From: a virus
DNA length: 64,000 nucleotides
Virus record (IMG/VR): IMGVR_UViG_3300046009_005595
Location: 1 to 64,000 of that record
Reading direction: 5' to 3' (one strand)
In this document: piece after piece, positions 15,891-20,952 of the stretch
Numbering within the stretch: position 1 is the stretch's first letter
How the letters are laid out: each line of letters opens with the position of its first letter
Notes under the pieces: model-generated
The model's input: the letters and a program-made list of their open reading frames with translations, nothing else
Databases searched by the model: none
Told to the model about the DNA's origin: nothing
Program-made: the position numbers and the translations under genes

Positions 15891-15915
15891 AAGGGGGCAT
15901 TAGCCCCCTTTTTTT
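15891..15915. terminator. Strong bidirectional terminator after gp32
   Basis: AAGGGGGC and GCCCCCTT pair around an ATTA loop and are followed by a T-run on the plus strand and an A-rich stretch that serves as a T-run on the minus strand. It separates gp32 from the convergent 896-residue gene. Confidence 0.88.
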
Positions 15916-18604
15916 ATACTATTCTTACAATTCCATATTGAGCTTTTTGGAATACACTTTCTTCATTTCTTACTCCAATATTAATACCCATAGCAGTAGA
16001 ACTTGATCCTGCTCTTCTATCACCATTTTTGGAAGATCCACCTCCACCAGAAGAAGATAATATAGGTGCAGAAGAACCTCCAGAATTTCCACCACCTCCA
16101 CCAGAAGATATTGGTGTTACAGAAGATCCACCATTAAATGTAGTTACTCCTAATTCACCTAAATTACTTGTATTTTGTGCTTGTAATGATGGTAATCTTT
16201 CTCCTGATTTCATTCCTTGTAAATTTGCTATGTCTTTAACATTTGAAACTACATCTAATAATGAACTTGATTTACCAATAGAAGAAATGTCAAAATTTCC
16301 TCCTATATTTCCAGTTGAAAAATCTCCTACTTTTGACGATGGATTTCCTTTAATGCTACCATCAGAGGTAGTGCTAATATTTCCTTCTACATTAGTATTT
16401 TTATTATCTGAAGGTTCTTCAAAAAGTCCACCAAATAATCCGCCTAAAGTCTTAGATATAGTTGGAATCATACTTCCAACTTTACCTACAGTTTGTAATA
16501 TTCCACCTAACTGACCAGAAGAATTTCTACCTCTAGAATTTCCACCAAATAATCCGCCTAAAGACCTAGCTATACCTGGAATCATACTTCCAACTTTACC
16601 TACAGTTTCTAATCCACCAGAAGAATTTCCACCAAACATAGAACTAATACTATCTGTTATATTAGATAATGGATTTTTTGTTATTAATTCTGGTTGCATT
16701 GGAGTAACACCAAACATAGAACTAATACTATCTTTCATAGTAGAAGCAGATTTATCTGCTTCTGTTTTTTTAGATTGTATTGCACCTATATCACTTGCTA
16801 TATTTTCAAGTAGACCTATCGTATTATCAAAATTAGAGGAAGATTCTGCTTGTGTAGTAGAATCTTTTGTTTCTGATACTGGAGTTATAGAGTCTCTATA
16901 TATTTCTTTATTTGTAGTAGGTTCTTTTATAAGTTTTTCTGAGGTTTCTTCTTGCTCTTCCTCTTCTTCTATATCTTCAGGCATTATTTTTTTAGAAGAT
17001 GTTATCATCATTTTTTGATCTTCTTTAGGAAGTTTTGATTCTTTATAAGGAACAACAATACCTGTTCCTAATTCTGTTCCTCCTGATTTAACAGGAACAG
17101 CACCTTCAGTTTTATTAGATTCTTTATAAGGAACAACAATACCTGTTCCTAATTCTGTTCCTCCTGATTTAACAGGAACAGCACCTTCAATTTTATTAGA
17201 TTCTTCCTTTTGGTTTTCTGCTAATTCTATTTTTTTCTGATCTTCTCTATGTTCTTTAGAATATCTAATGGCTTCCTTTATTGCAGAATCTGAAGTTCCT
17301 GTTGATTGTCCATATGCTGAACGTCCAGTAGTTGGATCAGCTATAGATGCCCATTCTTTAGACAAATTCTTTTGAAATTGTTCTTCACTTATTTTTCCTT
17401 CTCTATATTTCTTATATCCTCTACCTTCTAAAAGACTTCTACCTATCTTATCTTGTAGTTCAGGAGTGAAAATATCCTCATCAGAAAATCCTAATAATTT
17501 TTGTTGTGCTGATAATGTTCCTTGTACTACTTGATATTTCCCAACTGCTCCTGTTCCAAGCTTTGTTCCTGGTACTTTTCCACTAGTTGCTGCAATTTGT
17601 TTTTTCTGGAATTCTTTTACTTCTCCAACAGTCATTTGACTTAAAGGCTTATCAGGTTTTACATATTTACCAAATCCATAAGGCACATCATATCCAGATT
17701 CAAATCCAGCTTTTCTAGCTTTAGCATCATCTGTTCCTTCCCCTTTGGTAATTCTACTTAACAGAGTTTTTGTACCTTCATCAACAGAAGTTTGTATTTC
17801 AGTAGTATCTTTTCCTAAATCATCCCATCTTCTGATTGTTCCAGAACCAGATTTACCCATTTCTCCTACTTGTTTTCCTGATCTTTTATTACCTTCAGAA
17901 TCGACAGCATATTGTCCTGTATCTTTAAGACTTGGTGCACTTTCAACATCAAAAGCTTTTTTTAATCCAACTCCAACAGCACCAATACCTAATAAAATAG
18001 GACCAAGTTCAACTAAAGCTCCTGATAATAGAGGAATAAATTTCATTATATTTGAAATTATCTTTACTAAAGATGGTATAAATTTAGTTAGGATATTTTT
18101 AAAGGAACCAAAAACCTCAATAATATCTTTTGCTGAATCTTTAATTCCTTTAAATGGATTTTTTAGAAAATCATCCAAATTATCTATTGATTTTCCTGAT
18201 TCTTTTGAAGTATCATAATCGAATTCATAATCTTTTATTTTAGATGCGGTTTCAGATTTCTCTCTTTCATCTTTTATTTGATCATATCTTATTTTATTTG
18301 AAAGGAGTTTATATATTGCTTGTAATATATCAGATTGTGAATCATTTGCTCCAAGATTTGGAGTTGCTATTTTTGGAAGAGTATATCTTTGAGATACTTT
18401 TTCAGCAGTATTAGATTTAGATTTATCTTTTTTTGAAGATACCTCTGAAGATTCTACTTCAGAGGTTTTATCTTCGTTAATAGTCTTAAATTTATCTTTT
18501 ATATCTTTTCCAAAATCAGATAAAAAAGAGTTTAGATTTTTTATATTTGGTGATGAACTGATGTCTTTTATTACACTACCTAATTTGCTAATTTCATCTG
18601 CCAT
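15914..18604 (-). CDS. Tape-measure-like virion protein with lysozyme-like domain
   Basis: 896 residues. An N-terminal charged, Ser-rich region is followed by a hydrophobic segment around 170-215 (LVKIISNIMKFIPLLSGALV and on), then a lysozyme/transglycosylase-like domain about 283-445 with a candidate catalytic Glu in TKGEGTD and GTGAVGKYQVVQGT, then a 27-residue tandem repeat and Gly/Ser-rich segments with repeated LGGLFGG. It lies directly behind gp26 and its frameshift extension, the position of a tape measure gene behind its chaperones. It may thus be the tape measure (T4 gp29, 590 residues) or a hub protein that digests peptidoglycan during injection. Two bases separate it from the frameshift ORF. 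Confidence 0.65.
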   Translation of the reverse strand: MADEISKLGSVIKDISSSPNIKNLNSFLSDFGKDIKDKFKTINEDKTSEVESSEVSSKKDKSKSNTAEKVSQRYTLPKIATPNLGANDSQSDILQAIYKLLSNKIRYDQIKDEREKSETASKIKDYEFDYDTSKESGKSIDNLDDFLKNPFKGIKDSAKDIIEVFGSFKNILTKFIPSLVKIISNIMKFIPLLSGALVELGPILLGIGAVGVGLKKAFDVESAPSLKDTGQYAVDSEGNKRSGKQVGEMGKSGSGTIRRWDDLGKDTTEIQTSVDEGTKTLLSRITKGEGTDDAKARKAGFESGYDVPYGFGKYVKPDKPLSQMTVGEVKEFQKKQIAATSGKVPGTKLGTGAVGKYQVVQGTLSAQQKLLGFSDEDIFTPELQDKIGRSLLEGRGYKKYREGKISEEQFQKNLSKEWASIADPTTGRSAYGQSTGTSDSAIKEAIRYSKEHREDQKKIELAENQKEESNKIEGAVPVKSGGTELGTGIVVPYKESNKTEGAVPVKSGGTELGTGIVVPYKESKLPKEDQKMMITSSKKIMPEDIEEEEEQEETSEKLIKEPTTNKEIYRDSITPVSETKDSTTQAESSSNFDNTIGLLENIASDIGAIQSKKTEADKSASTMKDSISSMFGVTPMQPELITKNPLSNITDSISSMFGGNSSGGLETVGKVGSMIPGIARSLGGLFGGNSRGRNSSGQLGGILQTVGKVGSMIPTISKTLGGLFGGLFEEPSDNKNTNVEGNISTTSDGSIKGNPSSKVGDFSTGNIGGNFDISSIGKSSSLLDVVSNVKDIANLQGMKSGERLPSLQAQNTSNLGELGVTTFNGGSSVTPISSGGGGGNSGGSSAPILSSSGGGGSSKNGDRRAGSSSTAMGINIGVRNEESVFQKAQYGIVRIV
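17041..17202 (-). repeat. 81-bp tandem direct repeat, two copies
   Basis: Two nearly identical 81-bp units (17041-17121 and 17122-17202) encode 27-residue repeats containing EGAVPVKSGGTELGTGIVVP in the lysozyme-domain protein. Near identity at the DNA level indicates a recent duplication. Confidence 0.85.
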
Positions 18605-18606
18605 TT

Positions 18607-18810
18607 TTAAAACCTATTTTTATTTCTATTTTGTAATTCTCTTATTCTTTCGTTCTCTTCTTGAATATATGATTCAAGTTGAGATATATAAATTTGTCTT
18701 TCCCACGGAAGCATCTCTTCTAATTCACTCAGACTATACTTGTGGTGTTGCATTAATATAAAGTTAACTACATAGTAGTTTTTCAAATCTTCATGATGTA
18801 AAGTTATCCT
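18607..18810 (-). CDS. Frameshift extension ORF of gp26 (chaperone T-like)
   Basis: An open frame of 67 codons with no good start codon at its beginning; it opens in the -1 frame exactly at the slippery site at the end of gp26. It encodes RITLHHEDLKNYYVVNFILM, then QHHKYSLSELEEMLPWERQI and a charged helix. The first in-frame ATG (18753) would give 48 residues but has no ribosome binding site and would cut off the NYYVVNFIL part. Made as a fusion, the product is 240 residues of gp26 plus these 67. This mirrors the lambda G-GT arrangement, in which the frameshift domain recruits the tail tube protein and the tape measure gene follows. Stop codon 18609-18607, two bases before the 896-residue gene. 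Confidence 0.7.
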   Translation of the reverse strand, partial: RITLHHEDLKNYYVVNFILMQHHKYSLSELEEMLPWERQIYISQLESYIQEENERIRELQNRNKNRF

Positions 18811-19529
18811 AAAAAATTTTCAAGACCCTCAATTTTTATTTTATGTTCAAATCCACATTTATTACAAGTAGTTTCTATATTCTTTTGTAATTTTGGAAGA
18901 GTATCGAAAAAGTTTTTGATTTTATTAAATTGATCAATATTTAAACTTTCTAAAAATTCAGTAAGCTCTTCTTTAGAAGAATCTTTAGCATTGTAAATAT
19001 TATCGTTTTCGTAAATATGTTCAATACAATTTACAATTAAATCAAAAGCTAATTCAGCATCGTTATTGATTTTTGAAATAGAATTAATTAAATTATATGT
19101 AGGGAATTTCATTTTAATTCCTACAGAATCAGTTAATTCAATATCATTTTTTATATCAGTATCATTTATGTTTATATCTAATAAATCAATATTAACATCT
19201 AATAAATTCCCACAAATATTATCATCTGGATCTATAGAATTTTGACATCTGTATTTTAAAGATACAATTTCTCCTACAGATCTAGCACGAAGATTTATGA
19301 AAAAATATTCAATATCTACAATAGGAAGCTTGTCGATATTAATTTCACTTAAACAACAATTTTTTAATATTTCTTTTATATTGTCGGCAGTAAATGCTGA
19401 ATCTTCAGCAGATACTGCCATTAACAATATTTTTTGTTCTTTAACTAAGAATGGTCTAAATTTTACATTCTTTTTAGTTAAAGGTAATTTCAAGTCATAT
19501 GTTGGAACACTAATTTTTGGTAAACTCAT
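18804..19529 (-). CDS. 26: Baseplate hub assembly protein gp26-like
   Basis: 241 residues (T4 gp26: 208). The start, MSLPKISVPTYDLKLPLTKK with FRPFLVKEQKILLMAVSAED, is the signature of the T4 gp26 baseplate protein family. Typical later segments are LRARSVGEIVSLKYRC and a C-terminal CNKCGFEHKIKIEGL. Cys pairs (C95, C105; CNKC) could bind metal. gp26 acts in hub assembly and is now regarded as chaperone-like. Its last codons are AAT TTT TTA GGA TAA, a canonical -1 slippery sequence just before the stop, with an SD-like GAGGG upstream. Confidence 0.85.
   Translation of the reverse strand: MSLPKISVPTYDLKLPLTKKNVKFRPFLVKEQKILLMAVSAEDSAFTADNIKEILKNCCLSEINIDKLPIVDIEYFFINLRARSVGEIVSLKYRCQNSIDPDDNICGNLLDVNIDLLDININDTDIKNDIELTDSVGIKMKFPTYNLINSISKINNDAELAFDLIVNCIEHIYENDNIYNAKDSSKEELTEFLESLNIDQFNKIKNFFDTLPKLQKNIETTCNKCGFEHKIKIEGLENFLG
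18810..18830 (-). promoter_or_regulatory. Putative programmed -1 frameshift site in gp26
   Basis: Read on the minus strand in the gp26 frame, A AAT TTT TTA holds two overlapping slippery heptamers (A AAT TTT, 18819-18813; T TTT TTA, 18816-18810). The second is the heptamer used by HIV-1 gag-pol. An SD-like GAGGG (18830-18826) lies about nine bases upstream, as in the dnaX stimulator. A 6-bp hairpin (AACTAC/GTAGTT) is about 29 bases downstream, rather far. The stop TAA follows one codon after the heptamer. Confidence 0.72.
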
Positions 19530-19566: not shown

Positions 19567-20952
19567 TTATCTTTTACCAAATAACGAAGCAAGTAAAGCT
19601 GCTACGTCAATTGGTGGTGGTAATTGAATAGTTGGCGTAGTTGGTTTAGTTGTTACCCCAGTATTAACATTATAAAAAGTTTGATTTATATTATTTGTTA
19701 CTGTAGAAGTTGTATTAATATTAGTAACATTAGTAACATTGGTAATATTAGTAATATTTGTTGTTGTTGTATTATTATTAATTACAGTATTAGGAATAAC
19801 AGGAGTAATAACAGGTGGTGCTACATATGTATCAGCCTTATTTTGTTCAGCTACTAATTTTATCTTAGAATCATTTAATAATTTAGTAGTATCCTTTATT
19901 CTTGTTTCAAGAGCATTAATAGCTTTATCATTTGCAACTATAATATTTTTATAAGGTTGTAGTGCTGTTACTAAAGGACTTTGAACTACACCTGTATTTT
20001 TAAAATAATAAGCATTTTTATCTATACTTGGTAATTTAGCATAAATGCTTGATGTAGTAGTTCCAAAACTAATATAAGTTTCTTTATTATCATAAGGCAT
20101 GGCGTTGAAGAAAGTATTTCTAGTATCTCTTAGAGGAATATTAAAACTACTAGTAGGTACTTTTGCATTCCACCAATAATAAGTTCCTGCTCCTCTGTTT
20201 TCTGATGCATCTGCAGTACCAGTATATCCAATATCTCCTGCAGTAACTCTATAAGTACAACTTTGAGTGTAAGTTGGATTAGGTGATCTTCTTGCCACAA
20301 AACCAAGAGTTTGACCAGAAGCAAAAAATACATTCACGCCACAGAAAGCGCTTTTTTGAGGTAACATTAATTGAATTCTTACATAATTTTTAGTTTTTCT
20401 ATTAAATAAAAGAACTTTTCCTGTTGGTTTTGAATTACGATCTATATCATAATCATGTTCCATGCTTATAACAACATCAGATAAATTCCATTGAATATCA
20501 ATAGTTTGATTTCTATACCATTCACCAGAAACAAGAGTTTTTGCTGGATGATATGTGTAAGAAGGATTTATCCAATTATTTATTTTATAGATAGGACGAC
20601 CAATTCTTGATACATCACTAGTGCCAACATAATAGGAGAAATTAACATCTGCTCCAGCAGGAATGTAGAATCTTGTAGAATTGTCAGTAGGAGGACTAAC
20701 TAAATGTGTTAGAAAACCAACATCTGCTGTGTATGAAGTAACACCTGTCCAAGTTGAAACTGTTTTGGTGTTTCCAGTGCTCTTTGTTATTCTATCAATA
20801 ATTGCTTGTTGTGCTACTGTATTAGCTTTATAAGTTTTTTGATTATCTTGAAATCCTTTAATCTGAGTTTGATAAGTTGTAATAAGTCCTTTAAGTCTAT
20901 CAATTTCGTATTGTATTTCTGCTAGTGTAGGTGGATTGTATGCTGCTGCCAT
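19567..20952 (-). CDS. Virion structural protein, unknown
   Basis: 461 residues. The N-terminal coiled coil (LAEIQYEIDRLKGLITTYQT and on) is followed by a central beta-rich domain (about 65-320) with many aromatic residues, a second short coiled coil (about 340-375), and a Thr/Asn-rich C-terminal region with repeated TNITN/TNVTN (about 395-420) and a Pro-rich end (PTIQLPPPIDVAALLASLFG). Architecture and position between the gp26 and tail-tube-type genes suggest a tail or baseplate decoration protein. I do not recognise a named family. Confidence 0.6.
   Translation of the reverse strand: MAAAYNPPTLAEIQYEIDRLKGLITTYQTQIKGFQDNQKTYKANTVAQQAIIDRITKSTGNTKTVSTWTGVTSYTADVGFLTHLVSPPTDNSTRFYIPAGADVNFSYYVGTSDVSRIGRPIYKINNWINPSYTYHPAKTLVSGEWYRNQTIDIQWNLSDVVISMEHDYDIDRNSKPTGKVLLFNRKTKNYVRIQLMLPQKSAFCGVNVFFASGQTLGFVARRSPNPTYTQSCTYRVTAGDIGYTGTADASENRGAGTYYWWNAKVPTSSFNIPLRDTRNTFFNAMPYDNKETYISFGTTTSSIYAKLPSIDKNAYYFKNTGVVQSPLVTALQPYKNIIVANDKAINALETRIKDTTKLLNDSKIKLVAEQNKADTYVAPPVITPVIPNTVINNNTTTTNITNITNVTNVTNINTTSTVTNNINQTFYNVNTGVTTKPTTPTIQLPPPIDVAALLASLFGKR

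Follow-up and report, generated by a model that had tools for sequence, protein, structure and literature searches.

In the T4-like phage behind IMG/VR record IMGVR_UViG_3300046009_005595, the gp26 gene has a run of six T residues near its end and is overlapped by an open −1 frame that offers no good start codon of its own. The locus raises the question of how this frame is read and what its product would do. A preliminary description of the window (positions 1 to 64,000 of the record, 64,000 nucleotides in all) had proposed that a programmed −1 frameshift joins the frame to gp26, giving a pair of proteins like gpG and gpGT of phage lambda. Below, the short and long forms of such a tail assembly chaperone (TAC) are called TAC-N and TAC-NC, and the part added by the −1 frame TAC-C.

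The gp26 gene, its 3′ end, and its neighbors

The window belongs to a 135,688-base viral record with a cyanophage-type gene order. One strand carries the tail tube cap and gp53-like wedge genes; the opposite strand carries the genes for head closure (gp4), the end protector (gp2), and the tail tube, followed by one without a match, by gp26, and by a long gene. The features of the locus are collected in Table 1. Within the record, which is perhaps incomplete, gp26 is the single match to PF12322, and a search with that profile found no separate full-length TAC-NC gene.

Table 1. Features of the gp26-gp51 locus, in window coordinates
Feature	Position	Strand	Basis
Downstream gene, 896 aa, probable tail tape measure (presumed chaperone client)	15914..18604	(-)	Position, size; weak virion-structural-family matches
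−1 frame, gp51-like domain (TAC-C), 67 codons plus TAA	18607..18810	(-)	phrog_634 6e-23; conservation; third-codon-position bias
gp26 0-frame stop TAA, one codon past the slip heptamer	18804..18806	(-)	Sequence
gp26 homologue, 241 aa, read as TAC-N (short, lambda gpG-like)	18804..19529	(-)	PF12322 2e-60; phrog_150 5e-67
Slippery heptamer T TTT TTA, in the gp26 frame	18810..18816	(-)	Sequence; T TTT TTN in 133/133 distinct loci
SD-like GAGGG, probable stimulator, 9-nt spacer 5′ of the slip heptamer	18826..18830	(-)	Sequence; SD-like motif 8-11 nt 5′ in most relatives; synonymous-site selection

The 3′ end of gp26 reads ATT GAG GGT CTT GAA AAT TTT TTA GGA TAA. The slippery T TTT TTA and the Shine-Dalgarno (SD)-like GAGGG some nine bases 5′ of it, both claimed in the preliminary description, are present, and their coordinates are exact. 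The open 67-codon frame described there is likewise confirmed: its codons run from 18810 to 18610, encode the peptide RITLHHEDLKNYY...KNRF, and are closed by a TAA (18609-18607); two bases separate this stop from the start codon of the 896-aa gene, an ATG at 18604. Beyond the slip, no start-like codon occurs in this frame until a TTG at codon 9, followed by an ATG at codon 20; neither has a Shine-Dalgarno sequence at normal spacing in the window, in keeping with the claim that the frame lacks a usable start. Joined to the first 240 codons of gp26, the frame would give a predicted TAC-NC of 307 aa.

The peptide had been called protein-like, and it is: 64 aa from −1 codon 4 onward match phrog_634, "baseplate hub assembly catalyst" (gp51), and the frame is kept in relatives. 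We note one correction to the preliminary description, in that the −1 domain is gp51 and already bears the name hub assembly catalyst. The frame also matches the C-terminal end of the gp26 family profile phrog_150 (9e-5), so some members of that family already have the tail in one chain. An AlphaFold model of gp26 (pLDDT 88) had no significant Foldseek match among solved structures. The highest-probability PDB matches shown were two known TACs, HK97 gp13 (2ob9_B, 0.30) and YqbN (3klu, 0.28), with E above 1, which is suggestive of fold homology between the modeled gp26 and lambda-type TACs, short of significance.

The 896-aa protein matched structural-protein families and no tape measure family; its position and size make it a probable tape measure. 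Its residues ∼303-442 match the virion structural families phrog_6126 and phrog_30077, and may form a domain of lysozyme or transglycosylase type. On the other side of gp26, before the tail tube gene, lies a 461-aa gene (19567-20952, minus strand) for which PHROG gave no match at E 0.001. Toward its end it has an Asn/Thr-rich repeat (NITNITNVTNVTNINTTSTVTNNINQTF), and its product is possibly a fibre-like or decoration protein.

Conservation of the slip site and of the −1 frame

Two viral-contig scans yielded 158 loci, which after removal of duplicates left 133 distinct loci with readable sequence, comprising relatives of the window and two cyanophages. Every one of the 133 (IMG/VR and cyanophage) has an in-frame T TTT TTN at the end of gp26, the last base being C in 113, T in 16, and A in 4. 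A homologous −1 domain of 53-80 aa follows in all 126 loci whose −1 frame is complete. From the encoded residues and codon use, the chance of finding NNT TTT is ∼0.44 per locus, and it was seen in all 133; the product over 88 divergent representatives, ∼1e-33, is too strong a figure since the sequences are related, and the direction of the excess is not in doubt despite this kinship. The alignment of relatives, named beforehand as the check on the proposal, returned a conserved heptamer and −1 frame; the small frame has no start codon common to the relatives, and the locus sits immediately 5′ of a tape-measure-like gene.

The slip site and frame also occur in Kyanoviridae, in phages of Synechococcus and Prochlorococcus, in Methylophilales phage Melnitz-2, Sinorhizobium phiM19, Stenotrophomonas YB07, Delftia PhiW-14, and Vibrio VS1/K575, and, as T TTT TTG, in Rhizobium AF3. 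A viral-contig scan with the Vibrio K575 gp26 as query gave no matches. Some phages have the conserved −1 frame but lack a canonical T TTT TTN (loci L166, L168, L170, L173, and L175, from Ackermannviridae and Vibrio phages), and gp26 there ends in GAG ATT TTC ATT TAA, CAC GTT TTT CGC TAA, AAC CTT TTT CAA TAA, or TCA CTT TTC AAG TAA; in Ackermannviridae and Vibrio phage D493 the frame is retained and the T runs are shorter. In one further locus (L063) the 0-frame passes the heptamer by several codons, GAT TTT TTC GAA TCA GCC TCG CCC ACA ACA GCC TAG, which indicates that the position of the slip site does not depend on that of the stop codon.

Where conservation of the −1 domain begins bears directly on how it is translated. 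Similarity among relatives extends back to the codon that directly follows the slip, and the commonest first ATG stands at codons 19-20. Between the two, in −1 codons 4-18, third positions of the −1 codons account for 55% of the substitutions, the pattern expected of translated sequence. An independent gp51, made from the TTG at codon 9 or the ATG at codon 20 through re-initiation or coupling once ribosomes have reached the gp26 stop, is what GenBank annotations imply (P-SSM4 gp51, for example, is 61 aa and begins six bases after gp26, and Vibrio K575, S-CAM7, and S-H9-2 are annotated likewise), and the window does contain both codons. However, the conserved protein sequence begins ahead of both, the position of the first start in the frame differs among relatives, and an invariant slip heptamer would be left without a reason. 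We therefore rejected a gene with its own start, which we regard as very improbable.

T4 itself provides both a control and a further argument against a separate small gene. Its gp26 (208 aa) and gp51 (249 aa) are encoded by separate, divergently transcribed genes. PF12322 matches residues 1-201 of T4 gp51 (4e-52) and phrog_634 its C-terminus, and so the domain found in the window's −1 frame is in T4 covalently joined to a gp26-like domain. In gp26 of the T4 clade the corresponding residues are encoded as, e.g., TTC TTT, the slip heptamer is missing, and the −1 frame is mostly closed. That T4 has a short and a long product as two genes supports reading gp26 as gpG-like and gp26-gp51 as gpGT-like. 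Work by Vladimirov, Gautam, and Davidson in 2022 reportedly found frameshifting to be conserved in several T4-like groups, with T4 using separate genes 26 and 51; the latter is consistent with the T4 gene and domain findings here.

An upstream SD-like element

An SD-like motif lies 7-11 nt 5′ of the slip site in 82 of the 88 representatives, compared with ∼10% of control positions in the same phase. Its codons are biased. The Glu codon of the element is GAG in 42/69 cases vs 19% elsewhere in gp26; where it is GAG, the preceding Leu codon ends in G (20/24 vs 28%), and where it is GAA, the Gly codon is GGA (19/27 vs 31%). The element is therefore selected at the nucleotide (synonymous) level, beyond conservation of Glu-Gly in the protein, by statistics that ignore relatedness. 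Downstream of the slip, relatives gave no consistent strong signal for an RNA hairpin; the mean z was −0.64 vs −0.32 in control stretches, and a stimulatory hairpin was dropped as part of the signal.

The arrangement recalls dnaX, where a slippery heptamer has an SD-like element upstream. We think it reasonably likely that the frameshift cassette of T4-like phages other than T4 is a two-part, dnaX-like signal, an internal SD, selected at synonymous sites, at a fixed distance (8-11 nt) from T TTT TTN with no conserved hairpin, and that rRNA-mRNA pairing is the main determinant of the chaperone ratio. If so, T4, with its separate genes 26 and 51, swapped a slip-based ratio for two expression levels. 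The selected stimulator may be less known than the frameshift itself.

The same element speaks to whether ribosome or polymerase slips. A six-T run is present in every locus, and runs of this kind can make RNA polymerase slip, which would also produce a longer protein. Nevertheless, the heptamer keeps one phase relative to the reading frame of gp26, its form in most loci, T TTT TTC, is that of tandem tRNA slippage, and an SD-like element selected at synonymous sites serves ribosomes and not polymerase; transcriptional slippage strikes us as very improbable, much like the separate gene. A chance slip-like sequence in a degenerate or mis-sequenced gp26-gp51 fusion gene, conceivable given that homopolymer runs are error-prone in sequencing, is already refuted: 133 distinct loci show the same frame change, as do finished genomes of phage isolates, and we give this reading almost no weight.

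A probable tail assembly chaperone pair and its known counterparts

Taken together, the gp26-gp51 locus is very probably a TAC gene with a programmed −1 ribosomal frameshift. This is supported by the conserved site and frame, by coding constraint that sets in upstream of the first possible start, and by the two-gene counterpart in T4; the lambda-like pair put forward in the preliminary description gains support from that counterpart and from an alignment of relatives that came out as predicted. In the mechanism that we propose, the majority of ribosomes would terminate at the gp26 TAA and release TAC-N (241 aa). A minority, paused by the GAGGG, would slip back one base on T TTT TTA, with the P-site and A-site tRNAs re-pairing with TTT TTT, and add 67 codons to give TAC-NC (about 307 aa). 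Many copies of TAC-N and a few of TAC-NC would then coat the product of the next gene, the probable tape measure protein, to which the gp51 part would bring tube subunits, as with gpG/gpGT. We infer slippage, its efficiency, and the product ratio from sequence, and the chaperone action of the gp26 products by analogy with lambda.

On this reading, the short and long tail assembly chaperones are most likely what has long been catalogued as gp26 ("baseplate hub subunit") and gp51 ("hub assembly catalyst"), and most sampled T4-like lineages outside that of T4 most likely make both from one gene by frameshifting. T4 gp51 is needed for assembly and absent from the particle. Among the deposited records compared, including T4, P-SSM4, Vibrio K575, S-CAM7, and S-H9-2, none carries a joined gp26-gp51 annotation, so that for many phages the databases list the gene in two pieces and under a function name that is doubtful. 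These loci also form a natural set for studying the effect of an internal Shine-Dalgarno sequence on frameshift ratios.

The preliminary description did not know of a frameshift in T4-type gp26 as an established feature. Frameshifting in T4-like groups, together with the identification of these chaperone genes, was published in 2022 (Vladimirov et al.): passages of PMC12846349 credit that work with poly-T −1 frameshift signals in the TAC-N genes of T4-like phages, and the article on T4-like tail assembly chaperones (Vladimirov, Gautam & Davidson, Virology 2022;566:9-15) is also referenced in a passage of PMC10885494. Our finding is a correct independent rediscovery in a further uncultivated phage and is not new in kind.

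As far as those passages describe them, the published T4-like TAC-N/TAC-NC pairs share with the window the same genes 26 and 51 and the same poly-T −1 frameshift, with the T4 group using another mechanism; the window phage differs in having T TTT TTA where T TTT TTC is common. The TAC genes of Vandenendeviridae and Andersonviridae (Pseudomonas phage Adele), again as presented in passages of PMC12846349, have a conserved −1 frame and a poly-T slip before the tape measure gene, although they belong to other phage families and use a shorter GTTTTT motif. T4 resembles the window phage in that gp26 and gp51 both contain PF12322 and gp51 adds the C-terminal domain that the window has in its −1 frame, whereas it uses two divergent genes without a slip heptamer and the window phage has one gene. 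With lambda gpG/gpGT the locus shares a short protein with a rare (here predicted) −1 extension directly before a gene that in the window is a probable tape measure; unlike lambda, its slip site is poly-T, its gp26 is larger and has paired cysteines, and an SD-like stimulator lies upstream.
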